Shown here piece after piece: positions 16,812-64,000 of a DNA stretch of 64,000 bases. The first letter of the stretch is position 1. Each line of letters starts with the position of its first letter. Source of the DNA: Kaistia algarum (GTDB taxonomy: Bacteria; Pseudomonadota; Alphaproteobacteria; Rhizobiales; Kaistiaceae). The notes beneath the pieces were generated by a model. That model did not search any database and had not been told where the DNA came from. It saw nothing but the letters and a program-made list of their open reading frames with translations. Where the stretch lies: contig NZ_JAPKNJ010000001.1 of the NCBI RefSeq assembly GCF_026343945.1, positions 1,736,001-1,800,000 of the forward strand, read 5' to 3'. The position numbers and the translations under genes were made by a program.

Positions 16812-16856
16812 GGGTTTTCCGCCCTTCTTGCTTGTGCGCTCGCGAGGACTGCGATT

Positions 16857-16883: not shown

Positions 16884-16986
16884 GCACCCTATGGCATCTT
16901 CGCCGGAGGATTCGGACGGTTCGATGGCAGCAGGATTCGGCCTGTCGCCAGTCTGATCATGTAACAACCGGATCGCGAGGCGCTGT

Positions 16987-18312: not shown

Positions 18313-18327
18313 AATCAACGGGTTAGT

Positions 18328-18356: not shown

Positions 18357-18458
18357 AGAACCATTACCAGCGGTCACTAGGGTCCGACCCGCGTCGCCGC
18401 CGCGATCTCCTCGCGGCAGCGTTTCGCTTCATTTTTGACTCCACTAGGGAGATGGTCT

Positions 18459-19514
18459 GTGAAACTCACGAACATCGCATTTGCGGCTGGCCTAATGGCT
18501 TCCGCCATCGGTTTCGGTTCCGCCCAAGCCGTCGATATCTCGGGGGCAGGCGCGACCTTCCCCTATCCGATCTACGCGAAGTGGGCCGATACCTACCAGA
18601 AGGAAACCGGCGACAAGCTCAACTACCAGTCGATCGGTTCGGGCGGCGGCATCAAGCAGATCAAGGCCAAGACGGTCACCTTCGGCGCCACCGACGCGCC
18701 GCTGAAGCCGGAAGAGCTGGAGAAGGAAGGGCTCGTGCAGTTCCCGACCGTGATTGGCGGCGTCGTGCCGGTGATCAACGTTCCGGGCGTCAAGCCGGGT
18801 GATGTCGTTCTCGACGGCCAGACTCTCGCCGATATCTTCCAGGGCAAGATCACGTCGTGGGACGACGCGGCGATCAAGAAGCTCAATCCTTCGCTGACGC
18901 TGCCGGCGACCGCCATCGCCGTCGTGCATCGCTCGGACGGATCGGGCACCTCGTTCGTCTTCACGACCTATCTGTCGCAGGTCAGCCAGGCATGGGCTGG
19001 CGATGTCGGCGCCGCTTCGGCTGTCGAATGGCCGGTCGGCCTCGGCGCCAAGGGCAATGAAGGCGTCGCCGCCGGCGTGTCGCAGACGGTCGGTTCGATC
19101 GGCTATGTCGAGTATGCGTTCGCCGCGCAGAACAACATGACCTACGCCAAGCTCGTCAACAAGGACGGCCAGACGGTCGCTCCGGAAGTGCCGAACTTCG
19201 CCGCCGCCGCCGAAGGCGTCGATTGGTCGAAGCTGCCGGGCTACTACGTCATCCTGACCAACGAGCCGGGCGCCTCGTCCTGGCCGATCACCGCGGCGAC
19301 CTTCATCCTGATGCACAAGACGCCGAAGGATGATGCCGCTTCCGCTGCCGCGCTGAAGTTCTTCGCCTGGGCCTATGCCAATGGCGATCAGGCCGCTGCC
19401 GACCTGCATTATATCCCGATGCCCGACGCCGTCGTCGCCAACATCAAGGCCACCTGGGCCAAGGATATCGTCGGCGCGGACGGCAAGCCGCTCTTCGTCG
19501 AGATGGCCAAGTAA
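18459..19514 (+). CDS. pstS: Phosphate-binding periplasmic protein PstS
   Basis: A 351-residue exported protein that captures inorganic phosphate for the PstCAB importer. The signal peptide ends near AQA|VDI at residues 24-25. The mature start [20 protein letters not shown] is the PstS signature. RSDGSGTSF near residue 160 is the phosphate-contacting loop. The GTG at 18459 is favoured by AGGGAG 7 bases upstream and by the signal peptide it creates; an upstream TTG would place six extra residues before it. A strong hairpin follows the stop, which fits separate, higher expression of pstS relative to pstC. Confidence 0.97.
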
Positions 19515-19529
19515 GATCGACCGATCCTG

Positions 19530-19552
19530 GGAGAGGGGCGCCGCCCCTCTCC
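19530..19552 (+). other. Intercistronic hairpin between pstS and pstC
   Basis: GGAGAGGGGC and GCCCCTCTCC form a perfect 10-bp stem with a 3-base loop 15 bases after the pstS stop. There is no T-run. It is more likely a transcript-stabilising or partial-termination element that raises pstS mRNA over the permease genes than a full terminator. Confidence 0.75.
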
Positions 19553-19597
19553 TGATCTCTTCAGATTGAAGGCTCAGAGCTGAGCCGGGGGACCGAG

Positions 19598-20590
19598 ATG
19601 GCGGACGCTATAATGACCGGGTTGCGGAGCACAGGCGTAGATAGCAGCAAGCTCAAGCGGATGAGCCGGCTTCGTGCTGGCGACCTGGTGTTCAACTGGG
19701 TTACGTTCGCGGCCGCGCTGACGGTTTTGATCTTGCTCGGCGGCGTGATCATTTCGCTGATCTACGGCTCGATACCCGCCTTTCAGACTTTCGGTCTCGG
19801 CTTTGTAACCACGCAGAGCTGGAATCCGGTCACCGAGAAGTTCGGCGCGCTGGCTCCGATCTATGGCACCGTGGTCACGTCGATCATCGCGCTTCTGATC
19901 GCTGTCCCGGTGGGACTCGGGATCGCGATCTTCCTTACCGAACTCTGCCCGCCCTGGCTGAAGCGTCCGATCGGCGTCGCGATCGAACTGCTCGCCGGCA
20001 TCCCGTCGATCATCTACGGCATCTGGGGCCTCTTCGTCTTTGCCCCCTTCTTCCAAACCACCATCCAGCCGGCGCTGATCGGCCTGTTCGGCAATGTGCC
20101 CGGCCTTTCGAGCGTGTTCGCCGGGCCGCCCTACGGCATCGGCGTCCTGACGGCCGGCATCATCCTGGCGATCATGGTGCTTCCCTTCATCACCTCGATC
20201 ACCCGCGACGTGTTCGACACGGTTCCGCCGGTGCTGAAAGAAGCAACCTACGGCCTCGGCTGCACGACGGCTGAAGTCGTTACCAAGGTCGTGCTGCCCT
20301 TCTCCCGCGTCGGCGTCATCGGCGGCATCATGCTCGGCCTCGGCCGCGCCCTCGGCGAGACCATGGCGGTCACCTTCGTTATCGGCAACGCCCACAAGAT
20401 CTCGGCCTCGATCCTGGCTCCGGGAACGACCATCTCGGCCTCGATCGCCAATGAATTCACCGAGGCCGTCGGCGAGCTCTACACCTCGTCGCTGATCGCC
20501 CTCGGTCTGATCCTGTTCATCATCACCTTCATCGTTCTGGCGGCAGCCCGCATCATGCTGGCCCGCATGAACGTCAAAGCCGGCAACTGA
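19598..20590 (+). CDS. pstC: Phosphate ABC transporter permease PstC
   Basis: A 330-residue inner-membrane permease with six or seven hydrophobic segments, the first at about residues 35-58. [21 protein letters not shown] is the conserved PstC stretch, and the coupling loop [22 protein letters not shown] is the EAA-type motif. A G-rich ribosome site (CCGGGGGACC) precedes ATG 19598. It pairs with PstA to form the channel. Gene order pstS-pstC-pstA-pstB-phoU-phoB is the standard one. Confidence 0.95.
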
Positions 20591-20600
20591 GGCGAAAACC

Positions 20601-21482
20601 ATGGCAACCTTGGGAAACTCGGCCGTCTCCAGTCCAACCGCCCAGGCGCTCTACAAGAAGCGCCGCCGCGGCAACGGCATCCTGCTCAGCCTGTCTTTCG
20701 CTGCGACGATCTTCGGCCTCGCCTGGCTGGTGCTGATCCTGGCGGCCTTGGTCTGGCAGGGCTTTTCGGGGCTTTCGCTGGCGATCTTCACCGAGATGAC
20801 GCCGCCGCCGGGCGAGGCCGGCGGTCTGCTCAACGCCATCGTCGGCAGCCTGATCATGACGATCGCCGGTGTTTTGATCGGCACGCCGATCGGCATCCTC
20901 GCCGGCACCTACATGGCCGAATACGGCCGCCACAACCAATTGACCAACATCGTTCGCTTCATCAACGACATCCTGCTGGCGGCGCCGTCCATCGTCATCG
21001 GTCTGTTCGTCTATGAGGTCGTGGTCGCGCCGATGGGCCATTTCTCGGCTTTCGCCGGCGCCCTTGCCCTGGCCATCCTGGTTATTCCGGTCGTTGTCCG
21101 CACGACCGAGGACATGCTCAATCTGGTTCCGAACACGCTTCGCGAAGCATCGGCCGCACTGGGCCTGCCTCGTGCGGTCATGATCCGGCAGGTTGCCTAT
21201 CGCGCCGCCATGTCGGGCATCGTGACCGGCGTACTGCTCGCCATAGCCCGCGTCAGCGGCGAGACGGCACCACTGCTGTTCACGGCGCTGAACAACCAGT
21301 TCTTCAGCACCAACCCCAATGCGCCGATGTCCAGCTTGCCGGTCACCATCTTCCAGTTTGCTTTGAGCCCCTATCCGGAATGGCAGAAGCTCGCCTGGAC
21401 CGGCGCCCTGCTCATCACCTTCACAGTGCTTGCGCTCAACATCGTTGCCCGCACATTCCTTAGCCCGAGGACCTCCAAATGA
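20601..21482 (+). CDS. pstA: Phosphate ABC transporter permease PstA
   Basis: A 293-residue permease partner of PstC. It shows about six membrane spans, the conserved [18 protein letters not shown] stretch and the EAA-type loop [19 protein letters not shown]. It follows pstC after 10 bases. Its stop overlaps the pstB start as ATGA, so permease and ATPase are co-translated. The N-terminal segment before the first span is lysine/arginine-rich (KKRRRGNG), as expected for a cytoplasmic start. Confidence 0.95.
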
Positions 21483-22273
21483 CCCAGATCGCCTCCGCGA
21501 GCGTCGCCGGACATGGCATGGCCGAGAAGATCACGATCCGCAATCTGAAGTTCTTCTACGGCGAGAGCCTGGCGCTGAAGTCGATCAACCTGCCGCTCTA
21601 CGAGAAGAAGGTCACGGCCTTCATCGGGCCGTCGGGCTGCGGCAAGTCCACGCTGCTGCGCGTGCTGAACCGCATGTACGACCTCTACCCGAGGCAGCAT
21701 GCGGAAGGCGAGGTTCTGTTCGATGGCGGCAACATCCTGGCGCCGGGCCAGGATCTCAATCTCCTGCGCGCGCGCGTCGGCATGGTGTTCCAGAAGCCCA
21801 CGCCGTTCCCGATGTCGATCTATGACAACATCGCCTTCGGCATCCGCCTCTATGAGAATATCTCGCGCTCCGAGATGGACGCCCGCGTCGAGGCGGCGCT
21901 GACGCGCGGTGCGCTCTGGAACGAGGTCAAGGACAAGCTGACGTCGAGCGGCCTGTCGCTCTCCGGCGGCCAGCAGCAACGCCTCTGCATCGCCCGCTCG
22001 ATCGCAGTACGGCCGGAAGTCGTTCTGTTCGACGAGCCCTGCTCGGCGCTCGACCCGATCTCGACCGCCAAGATCGAGGAGCTCATCGACGAGCTGACCG
22101 CCGACTACACCATCGCGATCGTTACCCACAACATGCAGCAGGCGGCCCGCGTCTCGGACTATACCGCCTTCATGTATCTCGGCGAGCTGATCGAATTCGA
22201 CGAGACGTCGAAGATCTTCACGGCTCCGAGCGACAAGCGCACGCAGGACTACATCACCGGACGCTTCGGCTGA
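21479..22273 (+). CDS. pstB: Phosphate ABC transporter ATPase PstB
   Basis: A 264-residue ATPase. Walker [12 protein letters not shown] (about 48-58), [11 protein letters not shown] that is typical of Pst[20 protein letters not shown] (Q-loop), [13 protein letters not shown] (signature), [16 protein letters not shown] (Walker B) and [10 protein letters not shown] (switch) are all present. It energises phosphate import and, with PhoU, transmits phosphate status to PhoR. It overlaps pstA by four bases. Confidence 0.97.
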
Positions 22274-22295
22274 GCCCGGACGGCAGGAGGACGAC

Positions 22296-23012
22296 ATGTC
22301 GGAACATATTGTTACCCGATACGACGACGAGCTGAAGAACGTCCAGCGCCGCATCGCGGAAATGGGCGGCATGGCCGAACGGCTGGTGGATCTCTCCGTG
22401 TCCGCGCTGACGCGGATCGACACGGCCACCGCGAACATGGTCATCGCCGAGGATCGGCGCCTCGACGAGATCCAGCGCGAATGCGAGGAAGAGGCGATCC
22501 GCATCATCGCCCGACGCCAGCCCATTGCTGTCGACCTGCGTGAGGTCATCGGCGCGATGCGCATCTCCAACGACCTCGAGCGCATCGGCGATCTGGCCAA
22601 GAACATTGCCAAGCGCGTCCTCGCGCTCGACGGGCAGTTCCAGTCGAAGCGTTTCATGACGGGTGTGGAGCATATGGCGGAGCTGTCCCTCGCCCAGCTC
22701 AAGGACGTGCTCGACGCCTATGCGACGCGCGACGTCAACCAGGCCTTCGAGGTCTGGAAGCGCGATGCCGATATTGACTCGATGTACACGTCGCTGTTCC
22801 GCGAACTCCTCACCTACATGATGGAGGATCCGCGCAACATCTCGCTGTGCACGCATCTGCTGTTCTGCGCCAAGAATATCGAGCGGATCGGCGATCACAC
22901 GACGAACATCGCCGAGACCGTGCACTACGTCGTCACCGGCGAAGCGCTCACGCAGGATCGTCCGAAGCAGGACGAGTCGAGCCTGACGAACGTCACCTAT
23001 GAGAACATTTGA
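22296..23012 (+). CDS. phoU: Phosphate signalling protein PhoU
   Basis: A 238-residue all-helical protein made of two similar three-helix units. The metal-binding motifs appear as DLERIGDLAKNIAKR in the first half and NIERIGDHTTNIAETVHY in the second. PhoU connects Pst activity with PhoR and keeps the regulon off when phosphate is plentiful. A GGCAGGAGG ribosome site precedes ATG 22296. It sits between pstB and phoB, as in many alphaproteobacteria. Confidence 0.96.
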   Translation: MSEHIVTRYDDELKNVQRRIAEMGGMAERLVDLSVSALTRIDTATANMVIAEDRRLDEIQRECEEEAIRIIARRQPIAVDLREVIGAMRISNDLERIGDLAKNIAKRVLALDGQFQSKRFMTGVEHMAELSLAQLKDVLDAYATRDVNQAFEVWKRDADIDSMYTSLFRELLTYMMEDPRNISLCTHLLFCAKNIERIGDHTTNIAETVHYVVTGEALTQDRPKQDESSLTNVTYENI

Positions 23013-23045
23013 TCGGCTCGCTCCGGTCTGGTCGGGGTTAGCTGA

Positions 23046-23747
23046 ATGACACCACGGGTTATGGTGGTTGAGGACGAGGAGGCGCTGAGCCTCCTCCTAC
23101 GATACAATCTCGAAGCGGAAGGCTACACGGTCGACGTGGTGCCTCGCGGCGACGATGCCGAGACGCGGCTGCGGGAGACCGTTCCCGATCTGCTGCTGCT
23201 CGACTGGATGCTGCCTGGAATCTCGGGCATCGAGCTCTGCCGCCGGCTGCGCGCGCGCGACGTCACGCGCACGCTGCCGATCATCATGCTGACCGCGCGT
23301 GGTGAGGAGCAGGAGCGCATACGCGGCCTGTCCACGGGGGCAGACGACTATGTCGTGAAGCCGTTCTCCGTGCCGGAGCTGATGGCGCGCGTCCGCGCTA
23401 TCCTGCGCCGATCGCGGCCGGAGGTGATCGCCTCGCTGCTGCGGGCCGGCGACATCGAACTCGACCGGGAGACGCACCGCGTCCGCCGTTCCGGCCGTGA
23501 ATTGCGGCTGGGGCCGACCGAGTTCCGCCTGCTCGAATTCCTGATGAAGAGCCCAGGCCGCGTCTTCTCGCGCGAGCAATTGCTGGACGGGGTCTGGGGA
23601 CGGGACGTCTATGTCGACGAGCGCACCGTCGACGTCCATATCGGCCGCCTGCGCAAGGCGGTCAATCGCGGCCGCGTCAAGGACCCGATCCGGACCGTCC
23701 GCGGCTCAGGCTACGCCTTCGACGACCAGTTCGTCGGGGTCAACTGA
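23046..23747 (+). CDS. phoB: Phosphate regulon response regulator PhoB
   Basis: A 233-residue OmpR-type regulator. The receiver domain has the acidic pair Glu9-Asp10, the phospho-acceptor Asp53 in LLLLDWMLPG, the Thr in IMLTARGEE and the Lys in DYVVKPFS. The C-terminal winged helix begins near residue 135 and contains LGPTEFRLLEFLMKSPGRVFSREQLLD and VHIGRLRKAV. It binds PHO boxes such as that before pstS. It ends the operon; three hairpins follow before the convergent gcrA. Confidence 0.96.
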   Translation: MTPRVMVVEDEEALSLLLRYNLEAEGYTVDVVPRGDDAETRLRETVPDLLLLDWMLPGISGIELCRRLRARDVTRTLPIIMLTARGEEQERIRGLSTGADDYVVKPFSVPELMARVRAILRRSRPEVIASLLRAGDIELDRETHRVRRSGRELRLGPTEFRLLEFLMKSPGRVFSREQLLDGVWGRDVYVDERTVDVHIGRLRKAVNRGRVKDPIRTVRGSGYAFDDQFVGVN

Positions 23748-52612: not shown

Positions 52613-54550
52613 ATGATCCACCGCATGTTCGTGTCACTGGCGTTTCTTGTCCTTCTGGCCACGTCAGCCTTCGCGGCCTGCGACGGACCCGTCGTCGCGC
52701 TGAAGAAGACCACGACGCAGGATCATGATTCCGGCATCCTCGTTTCCGGCGACACGGTGATCCTGCGCCCCAAGCCGGATGGCTGGAATGCGCTGCTGCT
52801 GCGCCAGGTCGTCGGCAGCGAGATTGACGTCTGCTTCACCATCGCGGCACGGATCGATGACGATCCGCGCTCATCCGCCGGCGGGATCCAGTTCTGGCGT
52901 TCGGGACAGTCAACCAGCGACGATTTCTATGCCTTGGAGGTCGATTCGGGCGGCAATGCCGCGGTTCTTCGCTACGAAAACGAGAAGTGGATCAGCATCG
53001 TCAAATGGGGCCGGGCCAAGTCGCTGAAGAAGGGCCTCAACGAGCGCAATGAACTCCGCCTGACGACCAGCGGCGACACGGCGAAGCTCTACATCAATGG
53101 CAAGCTCTACAAGACAGTCGAACGCCTGCCGGGCGGCAAGGGCGGCTACGCCACGGCGCTGATGGCCGAGGCCAACAAGGCGGCCGCCCAATTCGATTTC
53201 ACCAATGTGCGCTCGCCGACGCAGACCGACACGCCGGCGACCCCGTCCGCGGACGCGAGCCCCGTGACACCCGCCGACGATGCGCAGAAGACCGCGGAGG
53301 CGGCCAAGGAAGTCGTGCCGCCGCTCGATGTCGAGGGCAAGCGGATCTACGATCTGCTGATGGCGGTGCCGCTCAATCCGGCCTACGCCGCACTCGTCCG
53401 TTCCGACTTCGTGGCGGCGACGGGAAATCTGGCGCCGTCGCAGCGCTGGCAACATGGTTCGGCGGAGGTCACCTATGCCCTGAAGCCGCTGGCGGGCAGC
53501 ACGGCAAGCCGGCTGTCATTCCTCATCTATCCCGACGCAACCGAAGCCGCGAAATATCTCGCAGAGAAGATCTCGGGCTCCAACTTCTTCTGGGATTCGC
53601 CCGAGGGCAGCGTGCACCACGACACTTATGATGCCGACGCTCCGTTCGGTCATCCCATCGACTATGCCTTCGGCATCCAGGCGCTGAAGCGCATAGGCTG
53701 GACGCGGTGGGCCTACCAGGATGGCCGTGTCGTCATCATTGCCTTCACCGACCAGACGCTGGAACCCTTGAAGGAAGGGGTCGTCACCACCGACAAGGTC
53801 TCGGACGAAACGCTGGAGCGGGGACTCAATCTTCTGCTCGCGGGCAAATACCAGCTCGACGCGATCCAGGACATGAAGATCAGCACCGGAACGGGTCCGG
53901 CGAATGGTGTCACGGCATCGCTGAATGCCGAGATGCAGGCTGTCTACGATCGGCTGCTGGCGACACCGCCCGATGCCAACAATCTCGCCAAGCTCGACAC
54001 GGCGCTGATCGATGTGAAGGGCAGTCTGACACCGCCCACGGGACACGGCACGGCCGAGATCGTCTATGCGCTGAAGTCCCCTGCCGACACCGTCGAGACC
54101 AGCTTGTCGTTCTATTTCTTTCCCGACGCGGCGGCGTCCGGCCAATATCTGAGCCTGGAGAACTTCGACAATTCGATCTTCACCGAGCTGGGGACCAACA
54201 AGTTCGGGCAAGGCCAGATCGACCCGTTCCCGCCCTTCAACGAGAAGCTCAGCTACATGGTCGGCGAAGCCGAGGGGGAGAAGCGCGGATGGGTTCGCTT
54301 TCCCTATCAGGACGACAATGTCGTCATCGTCGCGCAGACGGGCGAGAAAAAGACCAGCGATGCGCCCTACAAGGTGTCGGCGGAAGCCATGCGTCAGGGT
54401 GCCCTGCTCCTGGCGCTCGGCAAGCTGCAGCTCGATGCGGCGCGGGCCTCAAAGGCCGCACCGGCGAGCGAGGCTCCCTCCGCCGCGCCAGCCGCATCCG
54501 GCAAGGCCCCCCTACCGAGCGGGCCGTCGTCGACCCAGAAGGTCCAGTGA
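52613..54550 (+). CDS. Secreted protein with an N-terminal LamG-like domain and two copies of a novel domain
   Basis: A 645-residue exported protein. Signal peptide MIHRMFVSLAFLVLLATSAFA with cleavage before ACDG. Residues about 25-205 are a beta-rich, lectin-like domain (FYALEVDSGGNAAVLRYEN, ELRLTTSGDTAKLYINGKL). Two homologous units follow, about 239-423 and 438-619. Shared landmarks: YDLLMAVP/YDRLLATP, GSAEVTYALKP/GTAEIVYALKS, LSFLIYPDA/LSFYFFPDA, RIGWTRWAYQDGRVVII/KRGWVRFPYQDDNVVIV and LLLAGKYQLDA/LLLALGKLQLDA. The start is the ATG that yields the signal peptide. No enzyme motif was recognised; a binding or surface role is possible. Confidence 0.8.
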   Translation: MIHRMFVSLAFLVLLATSAFAACDGPVVALKKTTTQDHDSGILVSGDTVILRPKPDGWNALLLRQVVGSEIDVCFTIAARIDDDPRSSAGGIQFWRSGQSTSDDFYALEVDSGGNAAVLRYENEKWISIVKWGRAKSLKKGLNERNELRLTTSGDTAKLYINGKLYKTVERLPGGKGGYATALMAEANKAAAQFDFTNVRSPTQTDTPATPSADASPVTPADDAQKTAEAAKEVVPPLDVEGKRIYDLLMAVPLNPAYAALVRSDFVAATGNLAPSQRWQHGSAEVTYALKPLAGSTASRLSFLIYPDATEAAKYLAEKISGSNFFWDSPEGSVHHDTYDADAPFGHPIDYAFGIQALKRIGWTRWAYQDGRVVIIAFTDQTLEPLKEGVVTTDKVSDETLERGLNLLLAGKYQLDAIQDMKISTGTGPANGVTASLNAEMQAVYDRLLATPPDANNLAKLDTALIDVKGSLTPPTGHGTAEIVYALKSPADTVETSLSFYFFPDAAASGQYLSLENFDNSIFTELGTNKFGQGQIDPFPPFNEKLSYMVGEAEGEKRGWVRFPYQDDNVVIVAQTGEKKTSDAPYKVSAEAMRQGALLLALGKLQLDAARASKAAPASEAPSAAPAASGKAPLPSGPSSTQKVQ

Positions 54551-54665: not shown

Positions 54666-55763
54666 TCAGTTCTTCAGCGCCGACGTGCCGTCAATTGCCG
54701 CCGGATAGGGCAGGTCGCTCACCAGCTTCGATGCCGGCTTGTCCTGCGCGAAGATCGTATCGAGATCGATCGTCACATAGGTCAAGCGGTGCGCGTAATC
54801 GGAGATCATCAGCTTGTTGTGCGTCAGATCCTTGATCGCCACCCACTGCGTATAGTCGGAGACGACTTCCTTGCCGTCCGTACTCTGGGCGATGCCGATC
54901 GGGATATCGACCGTGTTGAGAACGTGGCCGATCGCCTGGATCGCCTCGGCGCCGGTCTGCGGCGGCGTGATGTTGTGGCGCATGAAGGCGGCGCGGACGA
55001 AGCGCGAGGGCGGGGTGAAATCTCCCGGCAGACCCATCATGCCACCGCCCTGGCCGAGCGCGGTGACATTCACGGAGCCGATGTCGCGGCTGTTCACGCC
55101 GATGGTCGACAGGTTCAGATAGTTGCGTACGTTCAGGAGATGCCAGTCATAGGTCGGCGCGTTGGTAAGCACATGCGCGGCATTGTCGTACATCTTGAGT
55201 TCGCCGCCGACATATTCGACGACGACGCCGTCGCCCGTCTTGTCGGTGAAGACCATATGGATGGTCGGGGGGGTCGGGCCGGAGGGCAGCGACGGATCGG
55301 TCCAGACCTTGATCTTCGGCAAGTTCGCGCGGACGTCGGCGACCGAGCCGTTCATGCCGAGCACCCACTGGCCGAAGCCCAGGATCGACACGTAGCTGGT
55401 GTCGTCCTTGGTCACGGTCTGATACTGCGTGAAGCCCGGCAGGAAGTTGCCGCTGACGCCGAGGCCAGCGGAATTCTGGCCTTCCAGAATGGCGCCACCC
55501 GGGATGACCTCGGCGCTGATGCCGACCACGGCGTATTGCGTCGCGACCTTGTTCGCCGGAAGGCCAAGTTCCGGCGGCGCCGTCAGCGTCAGCTCGGTAC
55601 CCTTGGGGAAGCTCTGCAGCGTCCATTTCATGTCGAACGCCCATTCCATGGTGCGTCCGGCGATGACCGTGTTGTCGGCGGCGACGATGTCAACCGCTGT
55701 GCAGGCGAAGGCCTGGCTGAAGCTGGCCGCGAGCGCCAGGCCGGCGGCGAGAATGCGTAGCAT
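54666..55763 (-). CDS. Exported Ntn hydrolase of the choloylglycine hydrolase / penicillin V acylase family
   Basis: A 365-residue protein. A signal peptide (residues 1-20) ends at AFA|C, which exposes Cys21 as the N-terminal nucleophile that the CGH family requires. CTAVDIVAADNTVIAGRTMEW is the classic start (seen as CTAVDIV then GRTMEW). Other family features: a late Asn region GNFLPGFTQY, IHMVFTDKTGDGVVVEY and an Arg in GRTMEW. Related secreted enzymes cleave linear amides such as bile salts, penicillin V and acyl-homoserine lactones. The substrate here is not known; the periplasmic location favours environmental amides or AHLs. Confidence 0.88.
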   Translation of the reverse strand: MLRILAAGLALAASFSQAFACTAVDIVAADNTVIAGRTMEWAFDMKWTLQSFPKGTELTLTAPPELGLPANKVATQYAVVGISAEVIPGGAILEGQNSAGLGVSGNFLPGFTQYQTVTKDDTSYVSILGFGQWVLGMNGSVADVRANLPKIKVWTDPSLPSGPTPPTIHMVFTDKTGDGVVVEYVGGELKMYDNAAHVLTNAPTYDWHLLNVRNYLNLSTIGVNSRDIGSVNVTALGQGGGMMGLPGDFTPPSRFVRAAFMRHNITPPQTGAEAIQAIGHVLNTVDIPIGIAQSTDGKEVVSDYTQWVAIKDLTHNKLMISDYAHRLTYVTIDLDTIFAQDKPASKLVSDLPYPAAIDGTSALKN

Positions 55764-55861: not shown

Positions 55862-56898
55862 TCAGCGCCATGAAATGTCGACCGCGATCATCTCGTGGTC
55901 GGAGATGGCCCGCCGCTCGCTGTCGACCGCCTCGATGGTTCGCGGATGCGAGGCTTGCACACCGCGCGTGAACAACCAGTCGATGCGCCGGAACGGCGGC
56001 AAAGGCTTGCCGTCGGGAAGGGTGCGCAGCGTCGCCTGGGCATCGTTGCTGGGGAGCCAATCGAAGCCGGCCGCCCGCAGCAGGGCAAAAAGCGGTTCGT
56101 CGGCCTCCGGCTGCGTCAGCCACAGCGACGGATCGAGCGGCAGAGCCTTCGTGTTCAGATCGCCGCCGACGATCGCCGGAGAGCCTGGATAGAGTCGGTC
56201 CAGCGTTTCGATGAGCCGGCGTATCTGCGCGGCACGGTCGGCTGCGTCCGACTTGCTCTCGAGGTGAACGGAAACGGCAAGCAGCGGGCCGGCACGGGTT
56301 TCGATCTCGGGGCGACCGCCATGCGGAAACCGAGACGGCGCTGACCCTCCCGCGCATCGATCCACCATACGGCGCCGTCATCGAGACGGATCAAGGCCAC
56401 ATTGGAGAAGGGCAGCCGCGACAGAACGGCATTGCCATGGAAACCGACATCATTGCGCTCGCCGCGGTGCCATTCGCTTTCGCGCTCGTCGCCGATGCCA
56501 AGTTCCAGAAACTCCACGCCATAGGCGTAGCCCATGTCGAGCGCTGCCGCGAGATCGGCAACGGTGTGGCGGTTGCCGGAGCGGGCCATGCCGATATCGG
56601 CCTCCGACAGGAGCAGAACATCGGGCCCGACCGCCCGCACCAGGTCGGCCGAAGGCGCCGCATGCTTGAGCCGCTCGGCGTTCCAGGCGGCCACTCGGAG
56701 CGTCCCGGTATCGGGGACGCGCCTCGGCGCCGCCCGCACTTCCAGCGCGTTGAACGCCAGAAGATCGAGGGCGAGGCCATCATGGGCCGCGCGCGTCAGC
56801 TCCGCCTGCGGAGCTGCGCCGAAGAGCTCCGCAGGCGGCGTCGGCAAGGCGGGCACCGTGGCGGTCACGACGTGGGGAACGTTCACCCGATGGTCCAT
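55862..56898 (-). pseudogene. Endonuclease/exonuclease/phosphatase-family protein, frameshifted
   Basis: The N-terminal part (frame from 56898) carries LRVAAWNAERLKHA, GPDVLLLSEADIGMARSGN and NDVGFHGNAVLSRLPF, all EEP motifs. The C-terminal part continues in another frame with LLAVSVHLESKSD, AIVGGDLNTKALP, PFRRIDWLFTRG and ISDHEMIAVDI. The frames meet near 56309-56312, a run of four G on the plus strand; one extra base there would join them into a protein of about 345 residues. So it is either a real disruption or a sequencing indel. If repaired it would be an Mg-dependent phosphodiesterase, which fits the neighbouring ugp genes. Confidence 0.8.
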
Positions 56899-56909
56899 GG
56901 TCGGCTCTC

Positions 56910-57827
56910 TCAAGCATCGACGTCGGAGAGGCGACGATTGACCCGCTCGGCGAGGTCGCGGGCCCGGACGAGGCATTCGGCGCGCTCGGCCTCAAAACGC
57001 TCGCCGATCTCCATGATCAGCGCCGTTCCCGGCAGCACGTCGATCTCGTCGAAGATCGGCTCCCACGGAATATCGCCCCAGCCGATCGGCAGGTGCAGAT
57101 CGCCGATGCCGAGCGCGATCGCCTCGCTCGTATAGTAGAATTTCGACATCGTATAAGGCCGGCCGAAGCTGTCATGGACGTGCAAATGGCCGGTGACCGG
57201 CGCCATGGCGCGGACCTCGTCCCGGAAGTCGGCGCCGATGCGCGTCGTCTCGATATAGGCATGGCTGAAATCGATCAGCCCGACGAGGGAGGGATGATCG
57301 ACCGCGCGGATCGTCTCGGCCAGTTCGGACGGCGTCTGGCGATATTCGGTGTCGGCGACGGCGAAGATGTTTTCGAGCGCGATCCGAACGCCGATCTTCG
57401 CCGCGGCTTCGGCCATTTCCGCCAGGGCGTCGCGCTCCATCGCGTCATACTTGGCCAGCAACGGCCGCGGGCCGATCGGCGCCTGGCCGCAATGATGGAC
57501 GAGGACGTCGGCACCGACGCGCTCGCACAATTCCAGCATCGCCCGTACGGCGGCCTTCTGATAGGCGAGATGGGTCTCGTCCATGAAGTTCGAGACGATG
57601 AGGCCATGCACCGTATAGCGGATGTCGAACTTGGCGCAGATCTCGGCGAGGCGCCGGGCGCGGCCCTCGATGACGCGTCCGCCCGAGATCAGGTCCTCGC
57701 CGAAAAGGGCGAGTTCCGCGACATCGGCGCCGAGATCGACGATGCGGCGCAGCGATTCCTCAAGATGGCCGAGGTCGCCGTTCTTGGCCGTGGTCGAGAA
57801 GCCGACATGGGAGATGATGTTCGACAT
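56910..57827 (-). CDS. Sugar-phosphate isomerase/epimerase-like TIM-barrel protein
   Basis: A 305-residue xylose-isomerase-like TIM barrel. Metal-ligand candidates: ALENIFAV with Glu, LIDFSHAYIE with Asp and His, HLHVHDSFGR with His/Asp, and IMEIGERF with a final Glu. Also VLVHHCGQA and VHGLIVSNF. The ATG 57827 has GAGG 5 bases upstream; a start at 57851 would overlap the transporter gene. It follows ugpC by 20 bases and precedes the EEP gene by 11. It is likely co-transcribed with both. The reaction is unknown: it could process an imported phosphodiester or sugar. Confidence 0.85.
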   Translation of the reverse strand: MSNIISHVGFSTTAKNGDLGHLEESLRRIVDLGADVAELALFGEDLISGGRVIEGRARRLAEICAKFDIRYTVHGLIVSNFMDETHLAYQKAAVRAMLELCERVGADVLVHHCGQAPIGPRPLLAKYDAMERDALAEMAEAAAKIGVRIALENIFAVADTEYRQTPSELAETIRAVDHPSLVGLIDFSHAYIETTRIGADFRDEVRAMAPVTGHLHVHDSFGRPYTMSKFYYTSEAIALGIGDLHLPIGWGDIPWEPIFDEIDVLPGTALIMEIGERFEAERAECLVRARDLAERVNRRLSDVDA

Positions 57828-57847
57828 GGAAACCTCGCTTTGAAACG

Positions 57848-58951
57848 TCAATCGGCGCGAACCGACGCCAATATCTCGGCCGGGCGCTCGATCCGCAGAC
57901 CGGTATCGGCAGAATAGAGATGAATGTCTTCCGGCGCGAAGGCGACGGCGACGCTATCGCCCGGCTTCAGCGCCGTGGTCGTAGCGAGCGCCACCGCGAA
58001 GGATAGTCCGTCGAGATCGGTATGCACCACACGGCCGGCACCCAGTTCCTCGACGAAATCGACGGTCGCGGCGAGGGAGCCCGGCGTTCCCGGCTCGACG
58101 AAGCGCGCCGCTTCCGGCCGAACGCCGAGCGCGACGCGAGCGCCCGCCTTCGCATGGCCTGGTGAAAGTGCGACGCGGCGGTCCCTGTCATAGAGGAACA
58201 CGTCATGCGCATCGACGACGCCTTCGAGCAGGTTCATCGCTGGCGAGCCGACAAAGCCGGCGACGAACCGGCTGGCTGGACGGTTATAGACGTCGGCCGG
58301 CGTGCCGACCTGCTCGACGCGGCCGCCATTCATGACGACGAGGCGGTCGGCCAGCGTCATCGCCTCGATCTGGTCATGCGTCACGAAGACCGAGGTGGCG
58401 CCGAGCCGGCGATGCAGGCGGCGGATTTCGGCACGCATGGCAACGCGCAGCTTGGCGTCGAGATTGGAGAGCGGCTCGTCAAACAGGAAGACGCCGGGCT
58501 CGCGCACGATCGCCCGGCCCATGGCGACGCGCTGGCGCTGGCCGCCGGAAAGCGCGGCGGGCTTCCTATCGAGGAAGGCTTCGAGGCCGACGATCTTGGC
58601 CGTCGCCGCGACGCGCGCCCGGCGCTCGGGCTTGGGCACGCCGGCTACTTTCAGCGCATAGCCGATATTCTCAGCCACGCTCATATGCGGATAGAGCGCG
58701 TAATTCTGGAACACCATCGCGCAGCCGCGCTCGCGCGGCTCCAGTCGGTTGACGACGCGGCCATCGATCGCGATCTCGCCGGACGATATTTCCTCAAGCC
58801 CGGCGATCATGCGCAGGAGGGTCGACTTGCCACAGCCCGACGGGCCGAGAATGACGATGAACTCGCCCGAGGCGATGTCGAGATCGACGCCATGGACGAC
58901 GGTGTTCTTCGCATAGGCCTTCCTGACGTTCCGGATCGCGATCGAACCCAT
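57848..58951 (-). CDS. ugpC: Glycerol-3-phosphate-type ABC transporter ATPase
   Basis: A 367-residue MalK/UgpC-class ATPase. Walker [13 protein letters not shown]-loop [12 protein letters not shown], signature [13 protein letters not shown], Walker [17 protein letters not shown] and switch [14 protein letters not shown]. Residues about 240-367 are the regulatory TOBE domain ([24 protein letters not shown]). It energises import through the adjacent permeases. The assignment to Ugp follows from the ugpB homologue in the same operon. Confidence 0.93.
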
Positions 58952-58966
58952 CTTCGTTCCTTTCGT

Positions 58967-59881
58967 CTATTTTTCGGTCGAGATGAGGCCGCGCACGAAC
59001 CAGCGCTGCATCAGGATCACGACGATGAGCGGCGGCGTCATGATGAGCAGCGTCCCGGCCATGGCGACGTTCCAGTCGGGAAGGCCGAATTCGGACGGGA
59101 TCAGCGTCCTGAGCTCGGTGACGGCGATGCCGAAATTCGGATCGGTCGTGACGAGGAGGGGCCAGAGATACTGGTTCCACGCCCAGACGAACATGATGGT
59201 GAACAGCGCGATCATGTTGGAGCGCGACAGCGGCACCAGCACGTCCCAGAAGAAGCGCAGCGGCCCCGAACCGTCCATCTTGGCGGCCTCGGCGAGTTCC
59301 TCGGGGATCGTCAGATAGAACTGGCGATAGAGGAAGGTGCCGGTGGCGGTCGCGACCAGCGGCAGCACGAGGCCCGGATAAGAATTGAGCAGGCCCCATT
59401 GCAGCTTGATCTGCACGCCGGCCAGATGGGCGGCGAGCCAGGTGACGCCGGTGACGTCGAGGATCGCCTGGAACGGTGCCAGCGCATTGGCGGCCACGGC
59501 ATAAGTCGGCACGATGCGCACTTCGAGCGGCAGCATCAGCGTGACGAAGATGGCCCAGAAGATCAGCGAGCGGCCGGGGAAGCGGAAATAGACGATCGAG
59601 AACGCCGCCATCGCCGACAGGATCACCTTGCCGCAGGCGACCGCCGTCGCGAAGATGACCGAGTTGAACAGCTTGCGGCCGAGATCGGCCCGGACCCACG
59701 CCTCGTGGATATTGGCCATGAAATCATGGCCAGGCATCAGCGGCATCGGCACGATGTTGACGGTCTTGATGTCGTGCGTCGCCGCGATGATGACGATCGC
59801 AAACGGCAGCAGCGCCGTCAGCAGCCCGACCAGCAGGATCAAATGGCAGACGACGTTGAAGATCGGGGTGCGCTCAACCAT
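58967..59881 (-). CDS. ugpE: Ugp-type ABC transporter permease UgpE
   Basis: A 304-residue permease with about six hydrophobic segments. The EAA-type loop ELAEAAKMDGSGPLRFFWDVLVPLSRS is in the C-terminal half (quoted in part as EAAKMDGSGPLRFFW). WAWNQYLWPLLVTTDPNF is typical of UgpE/MalG-like proteins. It lies 7 bases after ugpA and 15 bases before ugpC. Confidence 0.92.
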   Translation of the reverse strand: MVERTPIFNVVCHLILLVGLLTALLPFAIVIIAATHDIKTVNIVPMPLMPGHDFMANIHEAWVRADLGRKLFNSVIFATAVACGKVILSAMAAFSIVYFRFPGRSLIFWAIFVTLMLPLEVRIVPTYAVAANALAPFQAILDVTGVTWLAAHLAGVQIKLQWGLLNSYPGLVLPLVATATGTFLYRQFYLTIPEELAEAAKMDGSGPLRFFWDVLVPLSRSNMIALFTIMFVWAWNQYLWPLLVTTDPNFGIAVTELRTLIPSEFGLPDWNVAMAGTLLIMTPPLIVVILMQRWFVRGLISTEK

Positions 59882-59888
59882 GGCCGCC

Positions 59889-60773
59889 TCACTTGTAGTG
59901 GATGCGCCGCTCGATGAAGCGGAACTGCACGATGGTAAGCAGGATGACCAGCACCATCAGGATGATCGACTGGGCGGCGGCGCCGGAATAGTCGAGGCCT
60001 TTGAAGCCGTCGAAATAGATCTTGTAGACCATGAGTTCGGTGGCGCGGGCCGGACCGCCCTGGGTCATGATGTCGACGATGCCGAAACTGTCTTGGAAGC
60101 TCTCGGTGATGTTGATGACGAGCAGGAAGAACAGCGTCGGCGTCAGCAGCGGCAATTGGATGTCGAAGACGCGGCGCAGCGGGCCGGAGCCGTCCATGGC
60201 CGCCGCCTCGATCATCGAGCGGGGAACGCCCTGCAGCGCCGAGAGGAAGAAGATGAAATTGTAGCCGATATATTTCCACGAGAAGGCGACGATGATGGCG
60301 ATCATCGCGTCATTGCCGTCGAGCGCCGGATTCCAGACGTTCGGCCAGAGATGGTTGACGATGGAGAGAAGGCCGGCTTCCGGCGCCAGGATGAAGCGGA
60401 AGGCGAGGCCGAGCGCCGGCGCGGCGATGGCATAGGGCCAGACGAAGACCGAGCGATAGAGACTGTGACCCTTCATCTCGCGATCGGTCAACAGGGCGAG
60501 AACCAGCGCCACAACCATGGCGATCGCCGTCGAGCCCAGGCCGAAGACGAGGCTGCGCGTGATCGAATTCCAGTAGATCGGGTCCTTCAGCAGATGGGCG
60601 AAGTTCTGGAAGCCGACCCATTTATTGCCGCCACCCCAGGGCTGCTCCAGCGTGAAGGCCCAGAAGAGCGCCTGGCCGCCGGGCCAGTAGAAGAACACGA
60701 AGACCAGCAGCAGCATCGGCAGGGCGAAGAGCAGGCCGATGGTGGTCGACGAGAAGGTGACGCGCTTTTCCAT
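59889..60773 (-). CDS. ugpA: Ugp-type ABC transporter permease UgpA
   Basis: A 294-residue permease. ALQGVPRSMIEAAAMDGSGP is the coupling loop, followed by FDIQLPLLTPTLFFLLVINI. WKYIGYNFIFFLSALQ and the start FALPMLLLVFVFFYWPGGQA are typical of UgpA/MalF proteins. It follows ugpB by 62 bases, which include a hairpin. Confidence 0.92.
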   Translation of the reverse strand: MEKRVTFSSTTIGLLFALPMLLLVFVFFYWPGGQALFWAFTLEQPWGGGNKWVGFQNFAHLLKDPIYWNSITRSLVFGLGSTAIAMVVALVLALLTDREMKGHSLYRSVFVWPYAIAAPALGLAFRFILAPEAGLLSIVNHLWPNVWNPALDGNDAMIAIIVAFSWKYIGYNFIFFLSALQGVPRSMIEAAAMDGSGPLRRVFDIQLPLLTPTLFFLLVINITESFQDSFGIVDIMTQGGPARATELMVYKIYFDGFKGLDYSGAAAQSIILMVLVILLTIVQFRFIERRIHYK

Positions 60774-60790
60774 GGGAATCTCGCCAAAAG

Positions 60791-60816
60791 CCCTCCCCCG
60801 GTGACGGGAGAGGGAG
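60791..60816 (-). other. Intercistronic hairpin between ugpB and ugpA
   Basis: CCCTCCCCC-GGTGAC-GGGAGAGGG forms a stem with one mismatch. It follows the binding-protein gene, as the pstS-pstC hairpin does, and may set a higher level of ugpB mRNA. The GGGAGAGGG core recurs in the pst hairpin. Confidence 0.6.
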
Positions 60817-60835
60817 ACGCGAAGTCGGGCCAGCT

Positions 60836-62188
60836 CTACGGCAGCTCTTTGCCTTCATAGGTTTGCTGGAAGCGGCGCAGGATGTCGTTGCCGCGGGCGG
60901 CCGCCTGGTCGAGCGAGGCCTGGACGTCTTCGTTCTTGATGAAGATCGCCTGCAGGCCGTTGGAGATTTCCTGGCGGATCTGCAGCAGGCCGCCGAGGCG
61001 GATGCCCGGATAGGAATTCGCATCGTCGGGCGTCGACGCCGTCAGGCTCTGGATCGCCAGCTCGCGGCCGGCATAGGGGGCCTTGTCGTAGAAGCCCTGC
61101 TTGACGAGGTAGTCGTAGCCCGAATTGCGGACCGGGATATAGCCGGTCACGGTCGACCAGGTCAGCGCTTCTTCCGGCTTGGCGATGAAGTTGAAGAAGG
61201 CGGCCGCGGCCTTGTAGTCCGCGTCCTGCTTGCCGGAAAGCACCCAGAGCGAGGCGCCGCCGACGAAGGAATGTTTGCGCTGCGTGCCTTCATAGACCGG
61301 CAGCATCGCGACGCCCCAGTTCAGGCCTTCCTTGGCGGTGCGGCCGATATTGCCATGGTCGCCGACCGAGGTCAGGATGGCCTGGCAATCACCGGCGGCG
61401 AAGGCCTCGACGAAGGTCTGCCCCGTCTCCTTCGACTTGATGACGGCGTAGCCGTTGTCGTACCAGCCCTTCCAGTCCTTGACGAACTGAACCCACTTGC
61501 CCTTGTTGAAGACCAGCTCGGCGTCGAGGCCCTCATAGCCGTTCTTCTTGGTGGCGATCGGCTCGCCGTGAACAGCGTTGAACTGCTCCTCGAACTGCCA
61601 GACTTCGTCGCGCGAGATGTTGAAGCCGAGCGGGCAGGTATAGCCCGCTTCCTTCAGCGCCTTGAAGTCGGCCGCGGCTTCTTCCCATGTCGCCGGCGCG
61701 TGATCCTTGCCGATCTTGGCGAAGGCGTCCTTGTTCCAGTAGAACAGCGCCGTCGAGGAATTGAAGGGGAACGAGTACATCTCGCCCTTCGAGGTCGCGT
61801 AATACGACTTGATGCCGGCGAAATAGTCGTTCCAGTCGACGTCGTACCCCATGTCCTTCATGAGCTTGTTCGCCGGGTAGAAGGCGCCCGAGAGCATGAT
61901 GTCCAGCGTGCCGGCATCGGAGACCTGCGCGATGGTCGGCTGCTGGCCGGCGCGGAAGGCCGCGATCGTATTCTGCAGCGAGGCGTCGTAGGAGCCCTGC
62001 GAGGTGCAGACGACTTCATAGTCAGACTGCGAGGCGTTGAAGCGGTCGCACTGCTCCTGGACGCGCTTGGCGATATCGCCCGAATTGCCGAACCAGAAAT
62101 CGATCTTGTGCTTTTCGGCGGCGGCCGGACCGGCCAGGAAGGCGGCCAACGCAAACGCGCTGACAGCGCCGAGAATCTTGGCGTTCAT
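60836..62188 (-). CDS. ugpB: Glycerol-3-phosphate-binding periplasmic protein UgpB
   Basis: A 450-residue exported binding protein. The signal peptide ends near AAA|EKH at residues 24-25. It resembles E. coli UgpB along its length: a CDRFNAS block, GSYDASLQNTIAAFRAG, SFPFNSSTALFYWNKDAF, IGGASLWV-like VGGASLWVLSG, and a C-terminal GNDILRRFQ. The GGASLWV loop contacts ligand in UgpB. The family binds glycerol-3-phosphate and glycerophosphodiesters. It is the first gene of ugpBAEC on the minus strand with a PHO-box-like site 77 bases upstream. Confidence 0.93.
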   Translation of the reverse strand: MNAKILGAVSAFALAAFLAGPAAAEKHKIDFWFGNSGDIAKRVQEQCDRFNASQSDYEVVCTSQGSYDASLQNTIAAFRAGQQPTIAQVSDAGTLDIMLSGAFYPANKLMKDMGYDVDWNDYFAGIKSYYATSKGEMYSFPFNSSTALFYWNKDAFAKIGKDHAPATWEEAAADFKALKEAGYTCPLGFNISRDEVWQFEEQFNAVHGEPIATKKNGYEGLDAELVFNKGKWVQFVKDWKGWYDNGYAVIKSKETGQTFVEAFAAGDCQAILTSVGDHGNIGRTAKEGLNWGVAMLPVYEGTQRKHSFVGGASLWVLSGKQDADYKAAAAFFNFIAKPEEALTWSTVTGYIPVRNSGYDYLVKQGFYDKAPYAGRELAIQSLTASTPDDANSYPGIRLGGLLQIRQEISNGLQAIFIKNEDVQASLDQAAARGNDILRRFQQTYEGKELP

Positions 62189-62264
62189 GAGAACCTCGCG
62201 AAGAGATGGAGCGCCGCTCCCGGCGCGACGGCCACCGCTTAGCTCATTAGGACGCCTGATAGTA

Positions 62265-62282
62265 ATGAAGATTCAATGACAT
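62265..62282 (-). promoter_or_regulatory. PHO-box-like site upstream of ugpB
   Basis: Read on the minus strand, ATGTCAT then TGAA then TCTTCAT. The two 7-base half-sites match CTGTCAT at 6/7 and 4/7 positions with the canonical 4-base spacer. It lies 77 bases upstream of the ugpB start, in the gap behind the peroxiredoxin-fusion gene. In E. coli ugp belongs to the Pho regulon. Confidence 0.6.
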
Positions 62283-62369: not shown

Positions 62370-64000
62370 TCAGAGCACCCGCAAGGACGGATCGCGTACA
62401 TAGCGAAGATAGGAGCGTACCTTCCGGAAGCCGCCCTGGTCGGCGAACATCCGCTCGGCTTCTTCGTCCGAGATGAAGGGCAGCACGACGGTATCGTCGC
62501 CGGGACGCCAATCCGCCGGCGTCGCGACACGGTATTTCGACGAGAGCTGCAGCGCGTCGAGCACCCGCAGGATCTCGTCGAAGCTGCGCCCCACCGAGGC
62601 CGGATAGGTCAGCATCAGTTCCACCCGCCTGGCGGGCGAGATGATGAAGACGCTGCGGACTGCCATGGTCTGGCCGAGCGCGGCGCCGTGGCGGAAATTC
62701 GTCGCGTCGAGCATGCCGAACAGCATCGCCACGCGGCGGTCCTTGTCGGCGATGATCGGGAAATCGACCGTGGTATGCTGCGTCTCGTTGATGTCGGCGA
62801 TCCAGCGTTCGTGCTCCTCCTCGCCGTCGACGCTCAATCCGATGACCTTGGTGGAGCGCTTGCGCCATTCGTCGCCGAGCCGCGCCGTCGCACCGAATTC
62901 GGTCGTGCAGACCGGCGTGAAATCCGACGGGTGCGAGAACAGGATGCACCAGGAATCGCCGATGAATTCGTGGAAGCGGATCGGCCCGAGGCTGGTATCG
63001 GCGACGAAATCGGGAACGCTGTCGCCGATGCGGATATAGCCTTGCTTGCGTAGCTGCTCCTCGGTGCGAAGGAAGGCGGCGTCGGGGCCGGCATAGCTGA
63101 ATTCGAATGCCCGCCCCGATGCTTCGCCGGCTTCGGGAAGCAGCGTCTGGTATTCATGGTCCAGCAGCTTGACCGTCCGGCCCTTGATCGTTCCCGCAAA
63201 GACGAAGTCGCCATCGGGTCCGCGCACCAGCGGCAGGTCGAAACGGAAGGAGCTGTCGCCGAGGAACTCCTCTTCGGCCGTCGTGTTCTGCCGCTGCAAC
63301 AGCTTGTTGCGATGGGGAAAGCGGCCGAAGCGCTTGATGACCGCGACATGCCGGTGAAAGATCTCGTGGAAGGCGTTGAGCGGGTCGTCGGACGCCAGTT
63401 GCTCCATTGCCCGGCCCCACTCCTCCATGCAGAGATACTGGTCCTCCAGCGCCTCCGAATGGGTGAGGACGAGGCAGAGGAAGACGCGCTCGACCGGCTT
63501 CAGCTTCTCGGCGATGCCGACCCGAAGCCCGCGCTTCACCAGGGTGAGGCAGCGCGCATCGGTCGCATACATCTGCGCCGTGTCGCGATACATGTTGCGC
63601 GGGAACTGGTCGAGCATGATGACCAGGGCGACCAGGAGGCGCGGATGATCGACGTTCAGCGCCCAGTTGTCATAATGGCCACGCGAGGCGAGCGCGACGT
63701 CGGCGCCGAAGCGGCTCCAGATCTCCTGGTCCGTCTGTTCGGACTTTCCGAACCACAGGTTCAGGCAGTCCTCGATGCTCGGCCGCAGCATATAGGCCAG
63801 GACCTCCTCGGCCTTGTCGAGTTCGGGGGTGTCCAGCTCGAGGCGCTCGTTCTGCAGCAGGATGCGCAATTCGCGCTGCAATGTTTCGAGATCGGCTCCG
63901 GACAGCGCCTCGCGCTCGTCGAGTCCCGCGAGGATCACCTTGAGGAATTGCTGGATCAGCGGCCCGGCGCCGGGATTGAGGGCGGCAAACCGGTCATTCG
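62370..64000 (-). CDS. DUF924 / 1-Cys peroxiredoxin fusion protein (N terminus outside the window)
   Basis: The frame is open to the right edge, giving at least 543 residues; the apparent GTG start at 63938 is probably internal because upstream codons (FAALNPGAGPLIQQFLKV) look coding. A DUF924 domain occupies the N-terminal part visible here (LNLWFGKSEQTDQEIW, MLDQFPRNMYRDTAQMYATD, HSEALEDQ). The C-terminal half is a Prx6-type peroxiredoxin with the peroxidatic Cys in SDFTPVCTTEFG and a late Arg region FIISPARRVELMLTYPAS. Prx6 proteins reduce peroxides with one active Cys. No second resolving Cys was recognised. The DUF924 role is unknown. Fusion of the two is unusual. Confidence 0.85.
   Translation of the reverse strand, partial: NDRFAALNPGAGPLIQQFLKVILAGLDEREALSGADLETLQRELRILLQNERLELDTPELDKAEEVLAYMLRPSIEDCLNLWFGKSEQTDQEIWSRFGADVALASRGHYDNWALNVDHPRLLVALVIMLDQFPRNMYRDTAQMYATDARCLTLVKRGLRVGIAEKLKPVERVFLCLVLTHSEALEDQYLCMEEWGRAMEQLASDDPLNAFHEIFHRHVAVIKRFGRFPHRNKLLQRQNTTAEEEFLGDSSFRFDLPLVRGPDGDFVFAGTIKGRTVKLLDHEYQTLLPEAGEASGRAFEFSYAGPDAAFLRTEEQLRKQGYIRIGDSVPDFVADTSLGPIRFHEFIGDSWCILFSHPSDFTPVCTTEFGATARLGDEWRKRSTKVIGLSVDGEEEHERWIADINETQHTTVDFPIIADKDRRVAMLFGMLDATNFRHGAALGQTMAVRSVFIISPARRVELMLTYPASVGRSFDEILRVLDALQLSSKYRVATPADWRPGDDTVVLPFISDEEAERMFADQGGFRKVRSYLRYVRDPSLRVL

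Follow-up and report, generated by a model that had tools for sequence, protein, structure and literature searches.

Genes of the Ugp type are commonly read as encoding glycerol-3-phosphate (G3P) uptake, and in Escherichia coli the PhoB-regulated ugpBAECQ system takes up G3P and glycerophosphodiesters. What, then, is imported, and how is it processed, when the four transporter genes are followed by two enzymes of other families in place of ugpQ? The question is raised by an operon of Kaistia algarum that lies at positions 55,862 to 62,282 of a 64,000-nucleotide stretch of contig NZ_JAPKNJ010000001.1 (positions 1,736,001 to 1,800,000; referred to here as the window, in whose numbering all coordinates are given). 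Here ugpB-ugpA-ugpE-ugpC precede a gene for a TIM-barrel protein (hereafter TIM) and a gene for an EEP-family phosphoesterase (hereafter EEP). Our data suggest a variant Ugp system for organic phosphorus, in which UgpB-A-E-C would import a phosphodiester and TIM would hydrolyse it, a reading that, taken as a whole and judged from sequence, stands about evenly poised between right and wrong. It draws on a UgpB class with an altered ligand pocket, on the association of that class with the two enzymes across related genomes, and on a conserved set of metal ligands in TIM.

Operon structure and transporter genes

The six genes run on the minus strand in the following order:

60836..62188, minus, ugpB paralogue of the window type ('type I'), solute-binding protein of 450 aa (SBP_bac_8, 126.8 bits)
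59889..60773, minus, ugpA, permease of 294 aa (NCBIfam UgpA, 275 bits; cut-off 335)
58967..59881, minus, ugpE, permease of 304 aa (NCBIfam UgpE, 302.9 bits; cut-off 297)
57848..58951, minus, ugpC, ATPase of 367 aa (NCBIfam UgpC, 527.9 bits; cut-off 432)
56910..57827, minus, TIM-barrel protein gene (TIM), 305 aa (PF01261, 110 bits)
55862..56898, minus, EEP-family phosphoesterase gene in two frames, the N piece starting at 56898 and the C piece ending at 55862 (PF03372)

All six genes proposed by a first-pass annotation of this DNA are present. They are tightly packed, with gaps of 62, 7, 15, 20 and 11 nucleotides along ugpB-A-E-C-TIM-EEP; Pfam and NCBIfam identify the transporter genes and Pfam identifies both enzymes. 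Against the curated models of the G3P system, UgpE and UgpC exceed their cut-offs, while UgpB (316 bits; cut-off 411) and UgpA fall below theirs. The ugpB-A-E-C order and the homology of the products are those of the E. coli-type UgpBAECQ system, but no ugpQ lies beside ugpC. A profile scan of the window proteins found no GDPD/UgpQ gene adjoining the operon, and the earlier statement that UgpQ is missing holds to that extent; it does not extend to the genome, where a single GDPD was detected on a different contig, nor to the genus, with at least one GDPD in each of 14 Kaistia genomes.

A separate UgpB class linked to the two enzymes

UgpB classes come from 249 evenly sampled genomes of the order, in which 38 places matched UgpB at E 1e-80. 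Twenty of these belong to a window-like class (at least 51% identity) and 18 to a canonical class (36-41%), to which the pSymB-type ugpB of Sinorhizobium meliloti also belongs (~36%). The window class was assigned by score to the window's UgpB and not by pocket residues, and by sequence the window UgpB is a member of a separate paralogue class. With proximity defined as within 6.5 kb of ugpB, and with Fisher tests that treat related genomes as independent, TIM or EEP was found near 13 of the 20 window-class genes and near none of the 17 canonical places that were read (p 2.2e-5; the eighteenth, at a contig end in genome G052, was left out). Kaistia contributes five of the 13 linked loci, from five Kaistia places in all, and outside this genus the association still holds, at 8/15 window-class genes (four with TIM, four with EEP) against 0/17 (p 6.1e-4). 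One genome (G024) carries ugpB on a different contig from ugpA-E-C-TIM and was counted as linked, and of the four loci outside Kaistia that have TIM, two (L120, L121) carry a TIM gene that belongs to a more distant clade and is divergent from ugpB. GDPD genes show the opposite distribution, occurring near none of the 20 window-class genes vs four of the 17 canonical ones (p 0.036), although one of the GDPDs counted as near (L145) lies on the opposite strand and about 5 kb off. Exceptions exist outside the sample, with TIM near a canonical ugp-GDPD operon in one locus (L125) and a GDPD match upstream of ugp-TIM in two Aureimonas loci (L064, L106).

The binding pocket was compared in an alignment of 96 UgpB rows, including E. 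coli UgpB (L203) and the printed stretch of 9lff, from which frames shorter than 350 aa were omitted. In Phaeobacter UgpB the residues contacting G3P are Y64, E88, S143, W188, W191, S266, G303, Y342 and R393 (PMC12718374). Seven of these nine are kept in the window UgpB; the two that differ, both of which contact glycerol, are E88, replaced by Asp, and W188, replaced by Ile. All 76 window-class proteins in the alignment retain Y64, S143, S266 and Y342, which contact the phosphate, G303 and R393, which contact the glycerol hydroxyls, and W191; all 76 have Asp in place of Glu88, and none has Trp at 188, where Phe is most frequent and Ile is found in the window protein and its close relatives. 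Canonical rows from the loci keep E88 in 17/18 and W188 in 14/18 cases, and both residues are kept in E. coli and Phaeobacter. The Trp clamp is described as setting G3P/G1P binders apart from binders of glycerophosphocholine (GPC) and of dinucleotides, and the GPC binder has an Asp (Asp102) at the place of Glu88 (PMC12718374). The window-class pocket fits a phosphodiester ligand; we infer such a ligand because the pocket keeps the phosphate contacts but is altered where G3P is clamped.

Gene neighbourhoods of TIM and EEP in relatives

To follow TIM beyond this operon, one genome per species was scanned, which gave 367 relatives; the best 80 loci were used, with annotation limited to chosen gene families. 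By script, a locus was scored as ugp + TIM when at least three of the four ugp genes lay on the same strand within 5.5 kb. The first-pass annotation had proposed a search for the gene set in other genomes, and this confirmed its co-occurrence: in 62 of the 80 loci TIM is immediately preceded by ugp genes (61 by script plus the contig-cut L037), and ugp, TIM and EEP occur together in 15 (14 by script plus L037). The ugp-TIM arrangement was seen in eight families, namely Kaistiaceae, Aurantimonadaceae, Phyllobacteriaceae, Brucellaceae, Rhizobiaceae, Chelatococcaceae, Devosiaceae and the more distant Rhodospirillaceae (Inquilinus). Within Kaistiaceae, of which 28 genomes were examined, TIM is present in 14/14 Kaistia genomes, with ugpC directly before it in all 14 stretches and, among the 13 besides the source genome, an EEP match next in 10. 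This synteny across relatives led us to reject a chance neighbourhood as the origin of the six-gene set. A quick tree of 97 rows required 17 context changes, compared with a mean of 27.2 after shuffling, and none of 200 shuffles gave a value as low.

EEP can also accompany ugp genes without TIM, as in four loci (L118, L119, L151 and L152), and the linkage of EEP to ugp is thus separate from that of TIM. EEP relatives were found in 22 of the 249 sampled genomes, in eight of them near a window-class ugp locus. Six of the other 14 were read: in L218 EEP follows another ugp-like operon, in L217 (as in L210) it has an ABC ATPase on one side and a GDPD on the other, and in four no such link was seen.

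Elsewhere TIM accompanies other transport systems. Four of the 80 loci (S. meliloti 4H41, a Mesorhizobium, a Chelativorans and an Ensifer) have TIM after a Dpp-type transporter and a GDPD, an arrangement also present on a plasmid of Agrobacterium larrymoorei. In L126 TIM is flanked by a Dpp-type transporter and a Na/Pi transporter, and in L131 it accompanies a Dpp-type transporter with a metallophosphoesterase gene upstream; no GDPD occurs in either stretch. Plasmid pAt2 of Agrobacterium tumefaciens Gle002 (L110, 546-15609) carries TIM inside an agrocinopine-type operon that also holds two GDPDs, an inositol monophosphatase, a NUDIX hydrolase, a Na/Pi transporter, a sucrose phosphorylase, traR, a DUF4432 gene and an aldose epimerase. 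On a nopaline-type Ti plasmid a shortened TIM relative (L109, 9001-9636) lies beside a NUDIX gene between the vir and T-DNA genes, near an agrocinopine synthase gene; related plasmids have been described as carrying truncated ACC-like genes between VIR and T-DNA (PMC6546132). Of 140 plasmid records matched by TIM, 94 come from Agrobacterium. More distant relatives of TIM (~33-37% identity) have mixed contexts, some by Dpp-type transporters and many without a link among the annotated families; five loci (L129, L156, L157, L160 and L170) hold them as tandem pairs, the last after a Dpp-type transporter. A general role for TIM as the replacement of GDPD was rejected, since TIM also sits beside GDPDs. 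Overall, these contexts point to import and cleavage of phosphodiesters. A literature search that went largely by listed entries found no published link between a TIM gene and ugp; the gene given after ugpC in S. meliloti is a glutathione transferase (PMC12542648).

The TIM-barrel protein

TIM carries nine metal ligands of the endonuclease IV type (H74, H112, E152, D186, H189, H216, D243, H245 and E273). Eight of them align with E. coli Nfo in MAFFT, while H216 was matched by its HxxD motif only, the aligner having put it elsewhere. The ligands are retained in 119-120 of the 120 best homologues among 1095. The window TIM shares its overall fold with the sugar 3-epimerase and isomerase families of PF01261 (AlphaFold model, pLDDT 88.3), and the genome (G000) has a large set of such xylose isomerase-like TIM-barrel proteins, with 26 PF01261 matches, 25 of them above the cut-off. 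Among 23 PF01261 paralogues encoded by this genome, a His at position 112 or 245 was found in none; several of them are gapped at 245. In the alignment of TIM, Nfo and these paralogues the first His and Asp229 of Nfo slipped, and the control is valid only for His 112 and 245; L174 (a fused frame), L180 (TIM itself) and L196 were omitted. Nineteen of the 23 paralogues were scanned, and three exceed a cut-off, as 2-oxo-tetronate isomerase, IolE and mannonate dehydratase.

No curated isomerase or epimerase model reached its cut-off with the window TIM, which scored 20.9 of 300 bits with IolO and 19.6 of 305 with fructoselysine epimerase. CbiR (NF041277) gave 24.3 bits against a cut-off of 105, and the curated nfo model (TIGR00587) gave no match at E 0.01. 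Among 19 members of the TIM family, weak matches were obtained to IolO in 16, to hydroxypyruvate isomerase in 11, to CbiR likewise in 11, and to nfo in four (best E 7.8e-4). When the TIM alignment was compared, as a profile, with Nfo as a single sequence, E was 0.0054 yet the probability only 6.7. The 'isomerase-like' label that TIM had been given is a poor guide to a protein whose metal ligands are the endonuclease IV set. Fold searches do not settle the function of TIM or of EEP; with EEP, nucleases, phosphatases and sphingomyelinases came close together.

The EEP gene

When the two EEP pieces were scanned apart, PF03372 scored 23.5 bits on the N piece, narrowly short of the cut-off of 24.5, and 32.5 bits on the C piece. 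The motifs WNAE, GGDxNT and SDH, which we take to be catalytic, are invariant in 14/14 aligned intact relatives; in the window they are divided between the two pieces, and because they span both frames the protein would not be produced whole as assembled. The split is confined to this assembly: of the 22 relatives' loci checked, 17 (16 distinct, L015 being the same as L039) carry a frame that matches both pieces, unbroken in every case, so a general decay of EEP was rejected; an EEP match without internal stop was found in 21/21 other genomes, whereas the source genome has no intact frame. Identity to Kaistia hirudinis is 72% and 76% for the two pieces and 80% for the TIM gene, and since the conservation of both pieces is close to that of TIM, the frameshift, whether mutation or assembly error, should be either recent or an artefact. 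Ninety-eight nucleotides past EEP, on the same strand, lies a gene of the choloylglycine hydrolase/penicillin V amidase family (54666-55763), which tblastn detected at the same place in K. hirudinis (L003, L029) and in no other Kaistia or best-80 TIM locus.

Possible regulation by phosphate

The first-pass annotation had also placed a PHO-box-like site before ugpB:

62265..62282, minus, PHO-box-like site, 77-94 nucleotides upstream of ugpB, 10/14 matches to CTGTCAT-N4-CTGTCAT

The site is present, but weak in this window alone: when that stretch was shuffled, its score was reached in 8.9% of cases, and random window pieces reached it in 6.1%. The motif is enriched over 72 ugpB upstream regions (the window included, and related loci not being independent), at least 11 matches occurring in 14/72 as opposed to 1.1% of shuffles, and at least 10 in 40 as opposed to 11.5%. 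As a positive control, PHO boxes with 12/14 and 11/14 matches were recovered in the window at 18328 and 18339, before pstS (array 18328-18356). The pstS gene belongs to a phosphate regulon at 15846-23747 which, named from the translations, comprises a ppk2-like gene, phoR, pstS, pstC, pstA, pstB, phoU and phoB; pstS also matches TIGR02136, below the cut-off. Pho control of the ugp operon is plausible from the upstream motifs.

Proposed pathway and alternative explanations

We propose that UgpB, with its phosphate contacts kept and its G3P clamp altered, probably binds a glycerophosphodiester or a related polyol or sugar phosphodiester. Once the compound is inside, TIM, with its endonuclease IV-type metal cluster, would most likely hydrolyse the phosphodiester bond, which is UgpQ's job in E. 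coli, and EEP, where present and intact, may act as a second phosphoesterase on the same compound or on its product. Expression would probably rise under phosphate limitation via PhoB. The earlier suggestion of phosphodiester import is strengthened by a pocket that departs from G3P binders as phosphodiester binders do and by the presence of TIM beside other phosphodiester-uptake genes, whereas the isomerase label and the lone PHO box lend it little. Several observations weigh against the pathway. Phe, the usual residue at position 188, is a mild replacement of Trp; the closest structural neighbours of TIM in the fold search are D-allulose and D-tagatose 3-epimerases; GDPDs already stand beside TIM in the Dpp-type and agrocinopine-type operons, and every Kaistia genome has one elsewhere; neither TIM nor EEP is nearby at seven of the 20 window-class loci; 14 of the 80 TIM loci have remaining contexts, such as an Ochrobactrum locus (L038) adjoining a nucleobase permease and a deaminase, for which a phosphodiester does not account; and Pho control leans on a motif that is weak here.

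Some of these points suit a different role for TIM, as an isomerase or epimerase of a sugar or polyol (or its phosphate) that acts on the released alcohol or sugar phosphate, with EEP or the unlinked GDPD cutting the ester. We regard this as possible, though distinctly the less probable course. The 3-epimerase neighbours and the weak matches of many TIM members to isomerase models speak for it, and it keeps a sizeable share because a GDPD so often stands beside TIM, which may then cut another diester or act on the product. Set against it are the ligand set shared with endonuclease IV, with His 112 and 245 peculiar to TIM among the genome's paralogues, three of which do exceed isomerase or dehydratase cut-offs, and the two loci (L126, L131) where TIM comes after a Dpp-type transporter and the stretch read holds no GDPD. 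Ordinary G3P uptake, with the unlinked GDPD handling any diester and TIM and EEP as passengers with unrelated tasks, would explain the GDPD of this and the other Kaistia genomes, the window-type loci that have neither enzyme and the TIM loci away from ugp. We consider it unlikely, given an association that spans eight families and persists outside Kaistia in the even sample (p 6e-4), the separate linkage of EEP and of TIM to ugp, and a UgpB pocket unlike the G3P pocket. Very unlikely, in our judgement, is the scavenging of nucleotide phosphodiesters (dinucleotides or short oligonucleotides), with TIM (endonuclease IV-like) and EEP (ExoIII/TDP2/nocturnin-like) as cytoplasmic nucleases. The superfamilies of both enzymes are rich in nucleases, the nucleobase permease and deaminase of L038 would suit it, and UgpB resembles the U3G dinucleotide binder, which is placed near UgpB (PMC12718374), but window-type UgpB keeps the glycerol-contacting G303 and R393 together with W191, and the remaining contexts indicate sugar or glycerol phosphodiesters.

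Returning to phosphodiester import with hydrolysis by TIM, we tentatively extend it to the TIM family, which may constitute a new class of cytoplasmic small-molecule phosphodiesterase, with a metal cluster of the endonuclease IV type, serving several unrelated phosphodiester importers in Hyphomicrobiales (a new UgpB specificity class, Dpp-type systems and agrocinopine-type systems on Agrobacterium plasmids) and, together with EEP, an undescribed route for organic phosphorus; the chance of this falls somewhat short of even. If true, many soil and plant alpha-proteobacteria would use a phosphorus source overlooked by annotation, and a widespread 'sugar phosphate isomerase/epimerase' family would gain a function and a link to opine catabolism in Agrobacterium.

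Other features of the window

Two further frames were recorded. A single frame at 62370-63998, which runs off the window, joins DUF924 to a 1-Cys peroxiredoxin (AhpC/TSA + 1-cysPrx_C), a seemingly unusual fusion. The 645-residue protein encoded at 52613-54550 had no Pfam or NCBIfam match at E 0.001.

Comparison with known systems

The nearest known system is ugpBAECQ of E. coli, with which the window operon shares the ugpB-A-E-C order, a CUT1-type ABC importer, homologous proteins and an upstream PHO-box-like site; it differs in having TIM and EEP and no ugpQ, and in a UgpB class with Asp for E88 and Ile, Phe or other residues for W188. UgpB of Mycobacterium tuberculosis, a GPC binder, shares the Asp at the Glu88 position with the window type, and the Trp clamp is missing or altered in that protein and in the Thermus U3G binder (PMC12718374), as it is in window-type UgpB. 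By overall score, however, the window UgpB is nearer to the E. coli (264 bits) and Phaeobacter (245 bits) proteins than to the M. tuberculosis chain (59 bits), and it keeps W191.

For TIM, endonuclease IV (Nfo), a trinuclear-metal phosphodiesterase of the AP endonuclease 2 superfamily, serves DNA repair, whereas TIM is found in a nutrient-uptake context. CbiR, a cobamide-remodelling phosphodiesterase of PF01261 (PMC7733943), offers a precedent for a small-molecule phosphodiesterase in this family, although the window TIM is far under the CbiR cut-off and occurs in other gene contexts. A sugar-phosphodiester system of Xanthomonas (PMC12807533) was set aside as a parallel, as it uses a 2H-phosphoesterase. 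In agrocinopine catabolism (accABCDEFG), a sugar phosphodiester is imported by an ABC transporter and then cleaved by a cytoplasmic phosphodiesterase (PMC4526662). The proposed pathway resembles this system in joining ABC import of a phosphodiester to cytoplasmic cleavage, and a TIM relative lies within such an operon on pAt2, but the agrocinopine system differs in its Dpp-type importer and its GDPD-type phosphodiesterase.

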